Virus record (IMG/VR): IMGVR_UViG_3300008110_000712
Location: 1-31,103 of that record
Direction: 5' to 3' (one strand)
Source: a virus
DNA length: 31,103 bases
Position 1 is the stretch's first letter. Each line of letters starts with the position of its first letter. Made by a program: the position numbers and the translations under genes. Of this stretch, positions 18,143-31,103 are shown piece by piece. The notes under the pieces are model-generated. The model was not told the origin of the DNA, ran no database searches, and worked only from the letters and a program-made list of their open reading frames with translations.

Positions 18143-19297
18143 CTATATATCTTTGTAATTCTTTGGTTTTAAATCTGCATCTAAAAGTAATGCTTTAAGT
18201 TCATTAAAGTGACCTGTATCGGACAATTCATATGCTCTACCTAAACATTGTTCAGCTTGCTGATACTGATAATCATCATCATCCAATAATCTATCTAACA
18301 TTGTTTCTAATTCAGCATCATTATTATAGAACATTCCATTCTGATTAATTTCTCTATAATTGTCACACTCACCAAACAATACAGGACAGCCTTTCATCAT
18401 AGCATCAGTTGCTGATAGTGACCATCCGTGATGATGTTCAACTGGCGTAACACAAACTCTGAAATTTGACAAGGAATTTAAGTATTCTTCTTTTGGTTTG
18501 TAATCGCATATAATCCAGCTCTCATCAAATCTACTACCATCAATGCCGGCTTGAGATACCCATAAAACAAAGTCCTGTCTTTTCTCTCTATACTTTTTAA
18601 GAAACTTATAGAACTTTGGCCATCCTTTGTAATCTGCTAATCGGTGATTAAACACAATTGCTTTCTTATTGAATGGAGTAGGAGCTTGGACTAAAGTATT
18701 AGAATCAGTATTTAAATAGAATGGCTGAATGATTTCATCTAACTTCATTAGAATATTGTCATTAAAGAATCTAGCTGCTTCTCTCATTACTGATTGCTTT
18801 TGAGTAAATGTATTTACATACAATCTTTCCATTTGCAATGTACCTAATATCTCATGCTCAAAGTTTAACCATCTATTTAGATTACTGATACCATTTGAGA
18901 AAGTAAATTCCCACCAATGACAATATCCAACGATTGGCTTGTTAGTAAATCTACCAACAGGCCAATCAGGTAAGTGTGAATAGACTACATCGTAATCTAA
19001 TCCGCTTTGGAAATGCATAAGTTTAATTAAATCCAATGGTAAGTTATTACGCATCCAAATCATATTACCAGACATCTGAATAATATGTTGCTGAACATTT
19101 TCAAATTTAGCTAATCGCTTAACAGGTTCAGGCAGAGGAATATGCCAGAAGAACTCATCTCCTAACTTCTCTATGTGGTTATGCAGTACATCAATGAATG
19201 AGTCTGCTTCTATTTTTCTACTGTTTGTAATATTAGGGATTACTAATATCTTACGTTTACCATCTGTGGGGTTGTTCCAAAATTTCATATGTGCCAT
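18143..19297 (-). CDS. GT-B family glycosyltransferase
   Basis: This 384-residue cytosolic protein shows no signal peptide or membrane segment. The C-terminal half has the nucleotide-sugar-binding pattern of GT4-type enzymes: AIVFNHRLADYKGWPKFYKFLKKY (about 215-238), then CVTPVEHHHGWSLSATDAMMKGCPVLFGECDNYREI (about 289-324), where the usual E..E loop is partly replaced by D residues. The N-terminal half is the acceptor domain (DVVYSHLPDWPVG, VGYCHWWEF). Donor and acceptor cannot be told. It could modify virion proteins, phage DNA bases or a host surface glycan. It is the only large leftward gene, with its own consensus promoter (19311-19342) about 15 bases upstream, and sits between modules like an acquired accessory gene. 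A second Met at residue 4 is an alternative start. Confidence 0.75.
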   Translation of the reverse strand: MAHMKFWNNPTDGKRKILVIPNITNSRKIEADSFIDVLHNHIEKLGDEFFWHIPLPEPVKRLAKFENVQQHIIQMSGNMIWMRNNLPLDLIKLMHFQSGLDYDVVYSHLPDWPVGRFTNKPIVGYCHWWEFTFSNGISNLNRWLNFEHEILGTLQMERLYVNTFTQKQSVMREAARFFNDNILMKLDEIIQPFYLNTDSNTLVQAPTPFNKKAIVFNHRLADYKGWPKFYKFLKKYREKRQDFVLWVSQAGIDGSRFDESWIICDYKPKEEYLNSLSNFRVCVTPVEHHHGWSLSATDAMMKGCPVLFGECDNYREINQNGMFYNNDAELETMLDRLLDDDDYQYQQAEQCLGRAYELSDTGHFNELKALLLDADLKPKNYKDI

Positions 19298-19310: not shown

Positions 19311-19342
19311 CAAATATAAGTATAATTTTTTAGATTTCCAAA
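19311..19342 (-). promoter_or_regulatory. Bacteroidetes-type promoter for the glycosyltransferase
   Basis: On the minus strand TTTG (19342-19339), 20 bases and TATATTTG (19318-19311) match the TTTG/TAnnTTTG consensus exactly. Transcription would start near 19305, leaving a leader of only about 8 bases before the first ATG. It begins directly at the end of the T tract of the upstream terminator. Confidence 0.7.
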
Positions 19343-19376
19343 TAAAAAGCCCCCAAAGCAGAATGCAATGAGGGCT
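19343..19376 (-). terminator. Leftward intrinsic terminator ending the small-RNA locus
   Basis: On the minus strand AGCCCTCA (19376-19369) pairs with TGGGGGCT (19355-19348) with one U-G pair, followed by TTTTATTT. The G-U pair exists only in the minus-strand RNA (it is a C-A mismatch on the plus strand), which sets the direction. Confidence 0.75.
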
Positions 19377-19491
19377 ACAAAAAAGTTTTGTTTGGGATGG
19401 CACTCAACCAAACAATATATACAAAGTAGAGGGACACTGATTATAGTTTAACAATAAAGAATCAGTATTGATTAAGTCCCTCTTTCTTAGT
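19343..19491 (-). ncRNA. Candidate structured small RNA with three hairpins
   Basis: A perfect promoter (19498-19529) would start an RNA near 19491. Reading leftward, hairpin 3 has an outer stem AGAGGGAC/GTCCCTCT (19483-19476 with 19435-19428) and an inner stem ACTGATT/AATCAGT (19466-19460 with 19442-19436), continuous on one side with a 9-base bulge on the other and a 17-base loop. Hairpin 2 is TTGTTTGG/CCAAACAA (19415-19408 with 19395-19388) with a 12-base loop. Hairpin 1 is the terminator. No reading frame with a start is present. The RNA would be about 150 bases. No Rfam family is recognised. It could be a trans-acting regulator, a polymerase-binding RNA or a decoy. Confidence 0.6.
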
Positions 19492-19497
19492 AGATAA

Positions 19498-19529
19498 CAA
19501 AGATAGGTAAAAAAATCTACAATTCCAAA
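19498..19529 (-). promoter_or_regulatory. Bacteroidetes-type promoter for the candidate small RNA
   Basis: On the minus strand TTTG (19529-19526), 20 bases and TATCTTTG (19505-19498) match the host consensus exactly, with the same spacing as the two neighbouring leftward promoters. It starts two bases after the stop codon of the 40-residue gene and points at a stretch with no gene. Confidence 0.7.
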
Positions 19530-19530
19530 G

Positions 19531-19653
19531 TTATTTTTTTAATCCTACTTTTTCCATCCATTCGATGGTCTGCCTGTTTCTCTCCATAAGCTCCTCATAA
19601 CCTTTCTGAATGCTTTTGTAAATTGCCTGAAGTTCTTCATCTGTCTTAGTCAT
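19531..19653 (-). CDS. 40-residue helical protein, function unknown
   Basis: The frame is open from 19728, but the -10-like element of its promoter (19688-19695) lies inside that longer frame, so the start must be at 19680 (49 residues, almost leaderless) or more likely at 19653 (40 residues, MTKTDEELQAIYKSIQKG onward, about 29-base leader). The product is a charged amphipathic helix with no recognised family. As an early leftward gene beside the control region it may be a small regulator or host-takeover protein. This is inference. Confidence 0.5.
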   Translation of the reverse strand: MTKTDEELQAIYKSIQKGYEELMERNRQTIEWMEKVGLKK

Positions 19654-19687
19654 AGTGTTATTTCTTAGTTCATCTCTCATTACATAA

Positions 19688-19719
19688 CAAATATACGCAA
19701 TTCCCCTGAATAATCCAAG
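19688..19719 (-). promoter_or_regulatory. Bacteroidetes-type promoter for the 40-residue gene
   Basis: On the minus strand CTTGG with TTG at 19718-19716, then 20 bases and TATATTTG (19695-19688). The -7 element is perfect and the -33 element has one mismatch (CTTG). The predicted start is near 19682. Confidence 0.6.
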
Positions 19720-19810
19720 CAAAATCATTTAAATATTTTTTAATATTTTCGGCGGTTTGGAAAATCTTTATTATATTTAGTCATAGTGATATAAAGTATT
19801 ATAAAGATTA

Positions 19811-19842
19811 TTTGGTAATTCAAAATATTCTTCGTATATTTA
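19811..19842 (+). promoter_or_regulatory. Bacteroidetes-type promoter for the rightward replication genes
   Basis: TTTG (19811-19814), 20 bases and TATATTTA (19835-19842) differ from the consensus only at the last base and keep the spacing seen in the three leftward promoters. Transcription would start near 19849, about 16 bases before the ATG at 19865. Confidence 0.5.
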
Positions 19843-19864
19843 ATTTAACAAAAAATAAAAAAAG

Positions 19865-20479
19865 ATGGCAACAAATCTAAAAAGAAAGTTACTTAGCAGG
19901 ACTATCGGTAAGACCTCATATTGGTCTTTAAATAAACAAATGGTCAAATCCATTGGTTTAGAATCTACTCTAATTTTACAACACATTATTGATTTACAGG
20001 AAGCTTTTAAGAAAGATGAGATATTCCAATCTCAGCCTGATATGTCTAATGAATTAGGAATTAGTGAATATGCAGTAAAAAATAAAATAGCTGAGTTAAA
20101 TAAATTAGGCTATATCAATGTAGTTAAAAAGGGTGTACCTTGTAAGAACTATTATAGTACAAACGATGATAAAATTATTGGTATTCTGGTCAACGGACTA
20201 GACCATACGAAATCAACGGACTTGCCAGTTGACAATGTTAGTGAGTATGAATCCAACGGACTAGACCATACGAAATCAACGGACTTGACAATATCAAATC
20301 AACCGACTAGTGATACCGAAATAGTATCCACTATTACTAATAATACAAACCAAGAATACGAGACTAATAATATAAAGACTAATAATACAAATACAGTAAG
20401 CATAGACACTATAAGGAATCACGATTATCAGACAGCTGAATATATGGAAAGACAATTTAAAGAATTAAATTTATTATAA
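19865..20479 (+). CDS. Winged-helix replication initiator-like protein with internal iterons
   Basis: The protein has 204 residues. Residues about 15-100 form a winged helix-turn-helix (SYWSLNKQMVKSIGLESTLIL, MSNELGISEYAVKNKIAELNKLGYINVVKKG), the layout of N-terminal domains of phage replication initiators of the lambda O or Rep type and of some regulators. Residues about 108-175 are polar and low-complexity. They carry two copies of NGLDHTKSTDL encoded by a 34-base direct repeat, part of a set of five evenly spaced iterons. The last 25 residues may be a helical interaction tail. An origin inside the initiator gene is known from lambdoid phages. It is the first rightward gene of the control region. 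No helicase gene follows in this window, so a pure repressor or regulator cannot be excluded. Confidence 0.65.
   Translation: MATNLKRKLLSRTIGKTSYWSLNKQMVKSIGLESTLILQHIIDLQEAFKKDEIFQSQPDMSNELGISEYAVKNKIAELNKLGYINVVKKGVPCKNYYSTNDDKIIGILVNGLDHTKSTDLPVDNVSEYESNGLDHTKSTDLTISNQPTSDTEIVSTITNNTNQEYETNNIKTNNTNTVSIDTIRNHDYQTAEYMERQFKELNLL
20191..20308 (+). repeat. Five iterons, likely replication origin
   Basis: CAACGGACT starts at 20191, 20214, 20254 and 20277, and CAACCGACT at 20300. The spacings are 23, 40, 23 and 23 bases. Each is followed by AG or TG. The pairs are embedded in a perfect 34-base direct repeat (20191-20224 and 20254-20287). The even spacing of about two helical turns fits a protein-binding array such as an origin. 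Confidence 0.6.
20336..20387 (+). repeat. AT-rich repeats next to the iterons (candidate unwinding element)
   Basis: ACTAATAATA occurs at 20336, 20363 and 20378 in a segment with very few G or C bases, starting 28 bases after the last iteron. AT-rich direct repeats beside iterons are the usual form of a DNA-unwinding element. The role is inferred from the arrangement. Confidence 0.45.
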
Positions 20480-24020: not shown

Positions 24021-24314
24021 ATGGGATTTACAAAAGGACATAAATTAGCAACGGGCAGACCCAAAGGCGCAATCAATCGTTCTACGGAGATGATGAAGCT
24101 GACAATTGCAAGAGCAGTAGATAATACACTCAATACATTATCAGCTGATTTAGAAAAGATTAGGAAGGAAGACCCGGAACGTGCAATAGAACTGGCACTT
24201 AAACTAATGGAGTTCACAATACCTAAATTGAGTAGGACAGAATTGAGAGGAGAGATAGAGCAAAGGATTCATACTATATCAGTAAACATAAATAAGAGTG
24301 GAAGTAACGATTAA
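24021..24314 (+). CDS. terS: Probable small terminase subunit
   Basis: The 97-residue protein starts MGFTKGHKLATGRPKGAINRST, a Gly/Arg/Lys-rich N-terminus I associate with small terminase-type proteins of Bacteroidetes phages. A helical middle (IARAVDNTLNTLSADLEKIRKEDPERAIELALKLMEFTIP) is suited to ring oligomerisation. It lies directly before the large terminase and overlaps it by 17 bases. It is shorter than usual and lacks an obvious helix-turn-helix, so it might instead be a regulatory DNA-binding protein. A low-complexity TATATGTATA stretch (23951-23975) precedes it. Confidence 0.65.
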   Translation: MGFTKGHKLATGRPKGAINRSTEMMKLTIARAVDNTLNTLSADLEKIRKEDPERAIELALKLMEFTIPKLSRTELRGEIEQRIHTISVNINKSGSND

Positions 24315-26740: not shown

Positions 26741-29700
26741 ATGCCATTAAATAAACAACAATTACTTCAGGAGAATAATACGAACTTTCCTAATAATAAT
26801 GACCAGTTAATTACTCCTCAATTATTAAGAGAGTTCAATGCCGATATGATTGATTCCATGCAGTTAACACAAAGCATGGATGCTTACGCTGTATTAAGCG
26901 GTAGCAATTCTTTCATAGGTAATCAAAATATAGCAGGTAATTTAAACGTAACAGGTACTTTAACTGCCACTACAATACATACAATAACTGAATCAGCTTC
27001 AGTTATATTCTCATCAGGCAGTAACCAATTAGGAGATGAGTTAACTGACACACAAATACTTTCGGGTAGTGTTAAAGTAGTTGGTAGCCTTACTATTAAC
27101 GGATTTCCTATCTTTACAGGTAGTGTGAATGTTGATACAGGAAGCCTTGTAACAACCGCATCATTCAACGCATATACGCAGAGTAATAACCAAAGGGTTA
27201 CTTCATTAGAAGCAAATACAGCAAGTGTAAATACTTCTATAAGTAATTTAAACTCATTTACTGCATCTCAAAGTGCACTCAATGGAACATTTGCAACGAC
27301 TGGTAGTAATACATTTACAGGCAATCAAACAATAGATAAAACAAAAGCATTATATACAAATGCTTTATATTGGACTAGTAGTGAGGTTGGATATACTAAT
27401 TTAGAAATCATAAACCAAGGTGGAGGTAATTTAGATTTTGCTTCTCTTAATGGTGGTAGAATGAGAATTGTTAATACTCCATTAATTTTGACTGGAAGTG
27501 CATTAACATCATCTAATGATATTAGTACATCAGCTAATATATACGCAGCTAACTTAACAGGTAGTGCAATCAATACAGGCAGTTTAGTAACAACGGCTTC
27601 GTTTAACGCATATACTCAATCAAACGATACAATAGTTAGTTCATTGGTAATAACTACCAATGCTCAACAAATATTAATAGGTAATTTAAACGTAGCAACT
27701 GCTAGTTTATTTACATCGGCAAGTAACGCATTAGTAACTGCATCTTTAAGTGGACAAACATTAACATTTAGAAAAGGTGATAATAGCACATTTGCTGTTA
27801 CTATACCTGATGTAAGTGGTAGTGATATATCTGCATTGAATGCTTTTACCGCATCACAATTACAAATCAATAGTGGATATAATACATTCACACAATCAAT
27901 ACAAGCTGAAGTAGATAGCTTACAAGCAGCAACTTCATCTTACGCAATTAGTGCAAGTGTAGCAGCAGTAGATGCGGCACAACAAGCACAAATAAATTCG
28001 TTGATAAACGCTACATCCTCTTACGCAAATTCTGCATCATTTGCAGCATCACAATTAGCACAAGATGGTAGAATAGATGGGTTATCAGCACAAACATCTT
28101 CATATGTAACTGAAAGTGAAACTGCATCTTTCGCAAGAACAAATGTAGATAACAACTTTACAGCAAACCAAACGTTTACAAACATAACGGCAGTATCTGC
28201 ATCATTTACATATGTTCAAACCACATATGAAACGAGTTCAGTAATATATTCATCTGGCTCTAATCAATTTGGTGATGAACTAAGTGATGTTCAAACTTTA
28301 AGTGGAAGTGTGAAGGTGCAAGGTTCATTGACTGTTAATGGTACGCCTGTATTAACCTCATCGGTTGATATTAGTGGATTAGTAACAACTGCTTCATTCA
28401 ACGCATATACACAATCAAATGACCAAAGAGTAAGTTCTTTGGAAACGAATAGTGCAAGTGTAAATATATCGATTACAAATGTAAACTCTGCAACAGCAAG
28501 TTTGTTCACATCTGTAAACAATTTAAATACATTCACACAAAGTGCACAAACATCTATAAACGCTTTAAATGCAGCAACATCATCTTATGTAAGTTCAGCA
28601 ATAACTGCAAGTTCATTAGTAACTGCTTCATTTGATAATGGAACTCGTAACTTAACATTCACAAAAGGAGATGCATCTACATTTAGTGTAAACATCCCTG
28701 ATGTTAGTGGTAGTACGGGTAACTTCGCTACAACTGGTAGTAACACATTTAGAGGAACACAAACTATTGAAACCGGAGACCTATTAATGGGTAATGGATT
28801 TCGTATCAACGCACCATCAGGCAACATTACAAACTTATCTGCAGAAACCACAATTCAATTTATAACAGAAGGAACGGCAGGACCTGGTGGAACTAATGAT
28901 ATTAAATTTTACAATAGAGTAACAGGTAGTTCAATTTCATTCATAAACGAACAAGCCGGCGCTGGTAATGAAATATACTTTGAAGGAGGTAAATTAGATT
29001 TTAATATAGCACCTCGTTCAGGTTCGACTGGTATAGTAACATTTAGAAATAATGTAGCATCAATAGATGCATCATCAACACCAATAACTGCATCAGCATT
29101 TAAAGCAGGAGTAGGTGGTATTGATTCAACAGGTGCTTTAACAGCATCTTTACAACAAGGATACGCTTGGGTAGGTAATAGTAGTGGTGTTTCTACATTA
29201 GTAGCAACCTCTTCTTTTGGAACAACAATCAATACAGGCTCATTCGCTACAACTGGCAGCAACACATTCATCGGTACACAAACGATTAGTGGAAGTGTAT
29301 TACCATTAGTAGATGGACAAGGTGATTTAGGAACTGATTCTTTAAAATGGAATTCGGTAGTTGTAAACGGACAAGTTAAAGGTAGTTCAGTAAACGGAAG
29401 TGGTAGAAATAATTTAGGAACAGTTCTAATTGGTGATGAAACATTCCCATTAAGTTTCCTAAGTGCAAGAGAAATAGTTGGTGATGGTAGTGGAGCAGAT
29501 ACACATATGTACTATGGTACAGGCTCAGCAACCGATGCATTAAGAGAATTTGTTTACGCACCATCAGGTAGTAACGCAAACTTTACTGAAGTATCCCAAT
29601 CATTTGATAGTAGAATAAATGGTATAGTTACCGGAACAGGCTTTGCTACAACAGGCTCTAATACATTTACTGGCAATCAAACTATATCAACTGCCGGTAA

Positions 29701-31103
29701 TACTCAATTAAATCTTATAGCACAACCTGGTTTCCAAACCAATGTTGAATTTCAATCTGAAAACTCTAACTTCCAAGCATATGGAGATTTCCGTATTAAC
29801 AATAACGGACAATTCGGTGGAAGTGGTAGTGTAAAGATGTTGGTGAAAGATAATTTTATCGAATATGCAGCAGACCAAGGTTTCCGATTTGGTGTGACTA
29901 ATGGTATTGGTAACGCTATCGATAATAGTGGATTTGTAACTATAAATGTTCCATCTGGTAGCCAACAATTCCAATTGACTGGAAGTTTAGTTGTATCAAA
30001 TACTTTAACTGCTTCATTACAAGAAGGATACGCTTGGGTAGGTGATAGTAATAATAGAAGTGTATTAGTAGCAACATCATCATTTGGTGGTGCAATAGAT
30101 ACAGGTAGTTTCGCAACATTGGGAGCTAATACATTCTCAGGCACTCAAACAATACAAGATGCTAATTTAACTATATCAAATACTGGTAGTGCATTTTGGA
30201 CAATGAATGGAGCTACGCAGAATAACATATTATTCAATTCTCCATCTACACAATTCACTTCATATGGTGCATTTATTTTTAATAATAATGGTAGTGCAGG
30301 TGGTTCAGGTAGTTTACAATTTACTGCAACATCTGCAAGTGCAAATTTCTATACAAGAGATGGATTTATATTCGGAAGAGCTGAACCTTCGCCAGTAGGT
30401 AACGGATTTGTTAGAATGAATACCATATCAGGTAGTTTAGTTTTAGCACCATCTGGATTTAATAATACTGCAGCTTCTTTATTACATCTATCTTCTTCGT
30501 CTAATACTAACAACGTTAACTTAATCTTTAAGAATAATAATACTGCCGCTGATACAATCATATCAGGTAGTGGTAATATATTTAGTAACCCTGCGGCACC
30601 AACTGCAGGATTTAAGAGATATATGACTGGTGGTAATATAGCAGTTGGAGGATTAGGTTCTGCTATTCCACAAATATCAGGCTCTATGGCTTGGTCACCT
30701 ACTATTGCAAATAACGTATTCGCAGTATCTGGTACACCAATAACTTGGAGAGGACCTGTTTCTGCATCAGCATCTAACCTTAACAATAACGTATTCGCAG
30801 GTGGAAACGTTGTATTAGGTACTTCAGCTGCAAATAACTTTGAAAAAGCAACGAATGCAACTAATATTACAGCAAACTTATTAGCAGGTACTATACAGGC
30901 AGTAGCATTTAAAACTCCTTTATCAGCATCTGTTGTTATGAGTAATAATATGATTGGTGGAGGAGCTGTACTAAGTATGGATAGTTCATCTATCAGTTTT
31001 AGTGGTAATAGTGTTCAGGGGCAATTTATTGTAAACAACTCATACTTCCCATCTACACTCAATACAAACTCTTCATTACAAGTTAATGGTGGATTATATA
31101 TTG
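26741..31103 (+). CDS. Very long repeat-rich tail fibre protein (cut by window end)
   Basis: At least 1454 codons are open from the ATG at 26741 to the window edge without a stop. The N-terminal 50 residues (PQLLREFNADMIDSMQLTQ) are helical and may anchor the fibre. The rest is low-complexity beta-repeat: a FATTGSNTF.G.QTI unit recurs at least five times (near 27294, 28728, 29248, 29640, 30111), the SSGSNQLGDEL.D.Q.LSGSVKV unit twice (near 27013, 28252), and ASLQ.GYAWVG twice (near 29143, 30010). Related units occur in the gene at 5616. Spaced polar repeats point to a trimeric shaft. The C-terminal tip, which usually carries receptor-binding or peptidase S74 chaperone domains, lies beyond the window. 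Confidence 0.8.
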   Translation, partial: MPLNKQQLLQENNTNFPNNNDQLITPQLLREFNADMIDSMQLTQSMDAYAVLSGSNSFIGNQNIAGNLNVTGTLTATTIHTITESASVIFSSGSNQLGDELTDTQILSGSVKVVGSLTINGFPIFTGSVNVDTGSLVTTASFNAYTQSNNQRVTSLEANTASVNTSISNLNSFTASQSALNGTFATTGSNTFTGNQTIDKTKALYTNALYWTSSEVGYTNLEIINQGGGNLDFASLNGGRMRIVNTPLILTGSALTSSNDISTSANIYAANLTGSAINTGSLVTTASFNAYTQSNDTIVSSLVITTNAQQILIGNLNVATASLFTSASNALVTASLSGQTLTFRKGDNSTFAVTIPDVSGSDISALNAFTASQLQINSGYNTFTQSIQAEVDSLQAATSSYAISASVAAVDAAQQAQINSLINATSSYANSASFAASQLAQDGRIDGLSAQTSSYVTESETASFARTNVDNNFTANQTFTNITAVSASFTYVQTTYETSSVIYSSGSNQFGDELSDVQTLSGSVKVQGSLTVNGTPVLTSSVDISGLVTTASFNAYTQSNDQRVSSLETNSASVNISITNVNSATASLFTSVNNLNTFTQSAQTSINALNAATSSYVSSAITASSLVTASFDNGTRNLTFTKGDASTFSVNIPDVSGSTGNFATTGSNTFRGTQTIETGDLLMGNGFRINAPSGNITNLSAETTIQFITEGTAGPGGTNDIKFYNRVTGSSISFINEQAGAGNEIYFEGGKLDFNIAPRSGSTGIVTFRNNVASIDASSTPITASAFKAGVGGIDSTGALTASLQQGYAWVGNSSGVSTLVATSSFGTTINTGSFATTGSNTFIGTQTISGSVLPLVDGQGDLGTDSLKWNSVVVNGQVKGSSVNGSGRNNLGTVLIGDETFPLSFLSAREIVGDGSGADTHMYYGTGSATDALREFVYAPSGSNANFTEVSQSFDSRINGIVTGTGFATTGSNTFTGNQTISTAGNTQLNLIAQPGFQTNVEFQSENSNFQAYGDFRINNNGQFGGSGSVKMLVKDNFIEYAADQGFRFGVTNGIGNAIDNSGFVTINVPSGSQQFQLTGSLVVSNTLTASLQEGYAWVGDSNNRSVLVATSSFGGAIDTGSFATLGANTFSGTQTIQDANLTISNTGSAFWTMNGATQNNILFNSPSTQFTSYGAFIFNNNGSAGGSGSLQFTATSASANFYTRDGFIFGRAEPSPVGNGFVRMNTISGSLVLAPSGFNNTAASLLHLSSSSNTNNVNLIFKNNNTAADTIISGSGNIFSNPAAPTAGFKRYMTGGNIAVGGLGSAIPQISGSMAWSPTIANNVFAVSGTPITWRGPVSASASNLNNNVFAGGNVVLGTSAANNFEKATNATNITANLLAGTIQAVAFKTPLSASVVMSNNMIGGGAVLSMDSSSISFSGNSVQGQFIVNNSYFPSTLNTNSSLQVNGGLYI

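Follow-up and report, generated by a model that had tools for sequence, protein, structure and literature searches.

A conserved phage RNA family whose loop seed evolves with the start of a neighbouring early gene: a candidate trans-acting antisense repressor

Antisense RNAs at start codons and the phage locus

Antisense RNAs that act at start codons are already known, as are cis hairpins on the homing endonuclease mRNAs of phage T4. In IS10, the antisense hairpin RNA-OUT uses its loop region to pair with the 5' end and start codon of RNA-IN, the short-leader mRNA of a selfish gene. RNA-OUT is encoded opposite its target and is fully complementary to it over the pairing region. In plasmid pMV158, the small antisense RNA RNAII inhibits translation of the replication initiator gene repB. 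This 48-nt countertranscript matches, along its full length, sequence ahead of the initiation signals, and its 5' tail rather than a loop does most of the binding (PMC4485353). The sar RNA of phage P22 is antisense to ant, pairs with the phage mRNA, and disturbs translation initiation (PMC12197685). In T4, homing endonuclease mRNAs carry hairpins in cis that hide their own Shine-Dalgarno sequence or ribosome-binding site (PMC2988022).

The RNA described here is predicted from the minus strand of a 31,103-nt stretch of viral DNA, which is referred to as the window. It resembles RNA-OUT in placing an antisense hairpin loop on the start codon of a short-leader mRNA, but it is encoded apart from its predicted targets, relies on 7-12 nt of complementarity, and carries a conserved body as a distinct part. 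No overlap with the predicted targets was found, and neither was the extended perfect complementarity to an opposite-strand gene start that marks RNAs of the RNA-OUT type. The predicted pairing is instead short and imperfect, as in trans-encoded base-pairing small RNAs; it falls where translation of a separately encoded target begins and appears to be kept by compensatory change. Like RNAII, the phage RNA is a putative antisense small RNA against a replication initiator, although it would pair via a loop. As with sar, a phage RNA would act on a phage mRNA; the account of sar describes no conserved body with a changeable terminator-loop seed (PMC12197685). The T4 hairpins, too, repress at the RNA level homing endonucleases that sit inside phage transcription units, but they act in cis, on the endonuclease mRNA itself.

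Two other classes of regulatory RNA can be set aside. 6S RNA is a long hairpin with a large central bubble resembling an open promoter, whereas the phage RNA has a one-sided 9-nt bulge and gave no 6S match in Rfam. Riboswitches and leader attenuators lie in the leader of the gene they control. The phage RNA does not: in the window the next promoter starts at its end, and its orientation to the early genes varies between phages. Neither the literature searched nor Rfam yielded a conserved scaffold with a changing terminator-loop seed that follows the start codon of a neighbouring phage gene.

The window is a tailed phage, a 31.1-kb virus record with a portal gene at 2897 and a large terminase gene at 24298. 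The nearest terminases belong to Bacteroides and Phocaeicola phages (about 37% identity), and the promoters in the window are of Bacteroidota type; the virus infects Bacteroidota-type bacteria. A nucleotide search of the sequenced phage collection with the 1.6-kb locus returned no match. At the right end, a single open frame (26741-31102, plus strand) of at least 1454 aa passes the end of the record, so that the record is either cut within a large gene or circular there. Bacteroidota rely little on Shine-Dalgarno pairing. They are not known to possess Hfq, and hardly any small RNAs have been described from their phages.

A small-RNA locus with a covarying body

A promoter matching TTTG-N20-TATCTTTG exactly lies at 19498..19529 on the minus strand. 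The initial annotation had singled it out as an exact host-type promoter, and the search of the window bears this out: exact TTTG-N20-TAnnTTTG sites number two (19529-19498 and 19342-19311, both minus), with 0.28 expected by chance. The predicted small RNA of about 149 nt occupies 19343..19491 (minus); it is delimited by fold statistics and by comparison with relatives, and its 5' end is placed from the promoter. For the sequence 19496-19343, the predicted folding energy is -45.4 kcal/mol, whereas shuffled versions average -27.6 (z = -5.26; 0 of 200 shuffles at least as stable), a stability beyond chance that agrees with the three hairpins proposed earlier. The stretch of about 150 nt was also said to hold no usable reading frame, and the sole ORF nearby (19403-19257, GTG start) is indeed broken by 1-nt indels in relatives.

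Hairpin 3 and the T-run behind it form a predicted intrinsic terminator (19341..19375, minus), with the stem GCCCUCA../..UUUGGGGGC, one G-U pair, and then UUUUUAUUU. It is directional, as had been noted, since the opposite strand has an A.C mismatch in this stem and no T-run. The glycosyltransferase promoter, an exact TTTG-N20-TATATTTG at 19311..19342 (minus), has its TTTG inside the terminator tail, so the remark that the next promoter starts where the terminator ends also holds. With its own promoter and terminator and no ORF, the locus has, judged by its sequence, the makeup of a stand-alone transcription unit. A 65-aa ORF lies upstream on the same strand (19531..19728, minus), and similar ORFs occur in L003, L058, and L011.

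Hairpin 1 (19428..19483, minus) is the body of the RNA and scores 83.9 bits with covariance model R1. It was described in advance as a stem of 15 pairs with a one-sided 9-nt bulge, and this is precisely its form. Helix P1 (19483-19476/19435-19428) contributes 8 bp, AGAGGGAC/GUCCCUCU, and helix P2 (19466-19460/19442-19436) contributes 7 bp, ACUGAUU/AAUCAGU; the bulge UUAAUCAAU spans 19475-19467.

Relatives were sought via the protease-like gene of the phage, then with DNA motifs, and then with two covariance models, and the RNA was found in about 40 phage contigs. Its usual place is the same syntenic region, close to where the early genes begin, in either of two orientations. In the reverse type (the window, L003-L007, and L057-L068) the RNA runs opposite to the early genes from its own promoter. 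In the forward type (L010, L028, L030, and others) it is co-directional, following one early gene and preceding the promoter of the next. The 62.6-kb contig of L068 (G048) carries two divergent copies (29122-29192 and 61673-61745). The second of these, like the copy in L021, adjoins what seems to be a small basic protein gene rather than early genes.

Compensatory change in the stems was named beforehand as a check, and the RNA passed it. Across 34 sequences, 12 of the 14 pairs of P1/P2 have changed on both sides. The covariation is 0.69 against 0.21 in shuffled alignments (0.53 against 0.17 with 19 sequences) and at most 0.14 in slid controls, and 94% of cells in these helices are paired, compared with 67% when shuffled and 34-47% when slid. 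Such heavy compensatory change in hairpin 1 marks a real structured RNA family. The stems vary freely, while the bulge UUAAUYAAU and the closing AC/G pairs are near-invariant; two divergent members have the bulge UUAAAAAAU. In many forward-type members the body is extended by an outer helix, such as AUAUGUGU/ACACAUAU in L028 and AAUAUGUU/AACAUAUU in L190.

The family is apparently undescribed, and the literature searches turned up no account of this RNA. With Rfam 15, the whole window gave 0 matches at gathering score, and the best permissive match reached 19.1 bits against a threshold of 85. This negative search, together with the covarying stems, upholds the view that the locus is a dedicated gene for an RNA of no recognised kind. 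A motif search of the bacterial and archaeal genome collection gave 11 matches, none confirmed by the covariance model. Of the DNA-motif matches, those that failed the model were taken as chance and dropped. Model R1 found no copy in 395 Bacteroidota genomes, a weak result because the search had no positive control.

Loop seed and the start of the neighbouring gene

In the window, the seed GUGCCAU (19397..19403, minus) sits in the loop of hairpin 2 (19388..19415, minus; stem UUGUUUGG/CCAAACAA), which also folds in the relatives examined. The seed is mostly unpaired in the fold and is complementary to gene starts of the form AUGGCAC. In most members of the family, the hairpin after the body is the terminator itself, and its apical loop is GUGCCAU, UUGUCAUU, CGUCAUUG, or a variant. 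These three loops are the reverse complements of AUG plus a second codon; elsewhere the seed loops UGCCAUGUUU and GCUAUU also occur. A run of 7-12 nt can pair between the loop and the start-codon region of the adjacent first early gene; in most forward-type phages the match to the start of the following gene is 7-10 nt long.

Loop and target evolve together. In the forward group, loops pair with their own neighbouring gene over 6.3 nt, compared with 4.3 nt for swapped loops (-10.3 versus -7.4 kcal/mol; p < 2e-5), and at least 7 nt of pairing over the AUG was found for 61% of neighbouring genes but 3.9% of all genes. Thirteen further members, gathered after the hypothesis had been formed, served as a fresh test set. 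Their own pairing averaged 8.5 nt, against 6.4 nt with swapped loops (swap test p < 5e-6), and pairing of at least 8 nt occurred in 11/13 of them but at only 3/183 other gene starts in the same loci (Fisher 9e-14). The reverse group taken alone gave p 0.26, its loops being too alike to discriminate. A genome-wide swap test over all gene starts was weak (p 0.0035 for the maximum; 0.20 for counts of at least 8 nt); the signal became clear once limited to the neighbouring gene, a restriction that was then tested on the members found later. The permutations treat related phages as independent, although several of the changes are clearly separate events.

A common preference for Ala or Thr as second codon was considered as the cause of the match and excluded, because the non-coding leader bases covary as well: in the GUGCCAU class, counting leader bases before the AUG only, 2.2 versus 0.7 bases match. 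Individual pairs are instructive. L191 and L192 share a near-identical body and the same target gene family, yet loop CAUCGG of the former faces CCGAUG and loop CAUCUUC of the latter faces AAGAUG. In L087, the loop UGCCAUGUUU accompanies the site AAACAUGGCA. In L016 (GCUAUU/AAUAGC), the CAU of the loop and the AUG of the site have both been lost, and the pairing falls just before the true start; L006 likewise has a 10-nt pairing just upstream of the real start. A single bulged base interrupts the pairing in L089 (AAUG-A-GCAC) and L090 (AAUG-A-GCACAA). Targets are weak in L059, L082, L149, and L194, and no convincing one was found in L036 or L037.

For the phage of the window, the most likely main target is a replication-initiation (O-like) gene at 19865..20479 on the plus strand (phrog_270, 6e-10; phrog_428, 9e-9). 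Its start region GATGGCA (19864..19870, plus) is complementary to the seed, and GAGUGCCAUCCC against GAUGGCA gives a predicted duplex of -14.7 kcal/mol with only 7 nt contiguous. Upstream lies an early promoter recognised by pattern match, TTTGGTAAT..TTCGTATATTTA (TTTG-N20-TATATTTA; 19811..19842, plus), of a type that also precedes the target gene in most relatives. Forward-type targets are mostly homing-endonuclease-like, with HNH_3, endonuclease VII-like, and homing-endonuclease matches.

A second candidate target box in the window is the start ATGGCACATATG (19297-19286, minus) of a glycosyltransferase-like gene (18143..19297, minus; weak Pfam GT matches below the curated cut-off). The seed against AUGGCAC at this start gives -11.6 kcal/mol. 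The gene carries an extra box, AUGGCACAUAUG / ATGGCACATATGAA, which is absent from its homologues, whose proteins start with MFWEN. It encodes an N-terminal MAHMK extension, with ATGGCACATATGAAA before TTTTGG, that is missing in homologues of 42-47% identity. The box resembles a portable target site that was attached to a captured gene. Phages with the MFWEN form, several of them represented by fragmentary contigs, yielded no copy of the RNA. The same 14-base start is present in the unrelated first early genes of L007 and L057. The glycosyltransferase was also considered as the reason for the RNA to exist and was rejected, since the RNA persists in relatives without it; the gene is missing from nearly all RNA-bearing relatives.

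Proposed action and alternative explanations

We propose, with a probability of roughly 0.78, that the small RNA made from the locus belongs to a new phage family and acts in trans as an antisense repressor of early-gene translation. The conserved body (P1, the bulge UUAAUYAAU, P2, and often the outer helix) would carry a terminator-type hairpin whose apical loop serves as an antisense seed of 7-12 nt. The seed would target the first gene behind the early promoter, pairing at its start codon or with the leader bases immediately ahead of that codon. The predicted leader of the target mRNA is A-rich, very short at about 20 nt, and devoid of a Shine-Dalgarno sequence; a seed lying over the AUG would therefore be expected to shut out the 30S subunit and reduce translation. 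The RNA thereby probably turns off translation of the neighbouring viral gene. In the window, it would control gene 19865 and, via the added AUGGCACAUAUG box, the glycosyltransferase; since it lies on the strand opposite gene 19865 without overlap, it could reach that gene only in trans. In other phages, the target would often be a homing-endonuclease-like gene. Expression, action in trans, and repression are what we infer from these sequence patterns. The initial annotation had suggested regulation of late genes, which the pairing evidence does not support: it points to early genes, namely the replication initiator, homing-endonuclease-like genes, and here also the glycosyltransferase.

We lean, with less confidence, towards a broader reading, a reprogrammable translation switch. 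A conserved scaffold would hold an evolving terminator-loop seed that tracks the start codon of whichever gene lies behind the early promoter (replication initiator, homing-endonuclease-like gene, or captured cargo), and cargo would join the regulon by gaining a small start-codon box. The visible coevolution of seed and start codon is a natural experiment on antisense RNA action in Bacteroidota, in which an RNA family predicts its own targets phage by phage. It also suggests how phages restrain embedded homing endonucleases and new cargo genes.

Among other explanations, the body might be the working part, binding a host or phage protein or RNA polymerase, with the loop pairing secondary and self-regulating. 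The near-invariant bulge UUAAUYAAU and its AC/G flanks, whose constancy pairing with a variable target would leave unexplained, could indeed bind a protein. But it is the loop that evolves in step with a gene, and the RNA shows no likeness to 6S or any other Rfam family; we consider this account unlikely. Nothing was found in favour of two functions suggested at the outset, binding of host RNA polymerase and action as a decoy against host defence. Slightly less probable is control in cis, where the loop on read-through transcripts folds back on the start codon some 110-140 nt downstream and limits read-through translation. In forward-type phages, the loop does lie on the same strand at a near-constant 112-144 nt upstream of the target AUG, and such pairing is possible there. 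A promoter of the TTTG-N20-TATATTAC type nevertheless separates the loop from the AUG, and the main mRNA would thus be expected to lack the loop. In the window and other reverse-type phages, RNA and predicted early target are on opposite strands, which makes control in cis inapplicable to gene 19865.

About as doubtful, or a shade more so, is that the RNA activates its target, for instance by unfolding the leader or shielding the mRNA. The seed lies over the start codon itself, and the short, A-rich leaders offer little structure that could be opened. Least probable by some way is a DNA element, a single-strand hairpin or origin, rather than an RNA. The locus adjoins a replication gene, and a hairpin formed as DNA would covary too, but the stems contain G-U pairs on the strand read from the promoter (GU and UG cells in the pair table of 34 sequences), promoter and terminator point in the same direction, and a DNA element would leave the complementarity to mRNA starts unaccounted for.

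Two further details concern relatives. Some forward-type phages, for example L080, L082, L036, and L059, have no TAnnTTTG upstream but share a AATACAAATTAAAAA..TGTTATA-like stretch before the RNA, which may be an alternative phage promoter or may mark where the preceding gene's 3' UTR is processed. In addition, the terminator arms CCCUCAUUGC../..GCUUUG.GGG of the window (19343-19380, minus) recur in L059 (6900-6945, minus) but enclose another loop, a pattern reminiscent of a fusion or exchange between hairpins 2 and 3.
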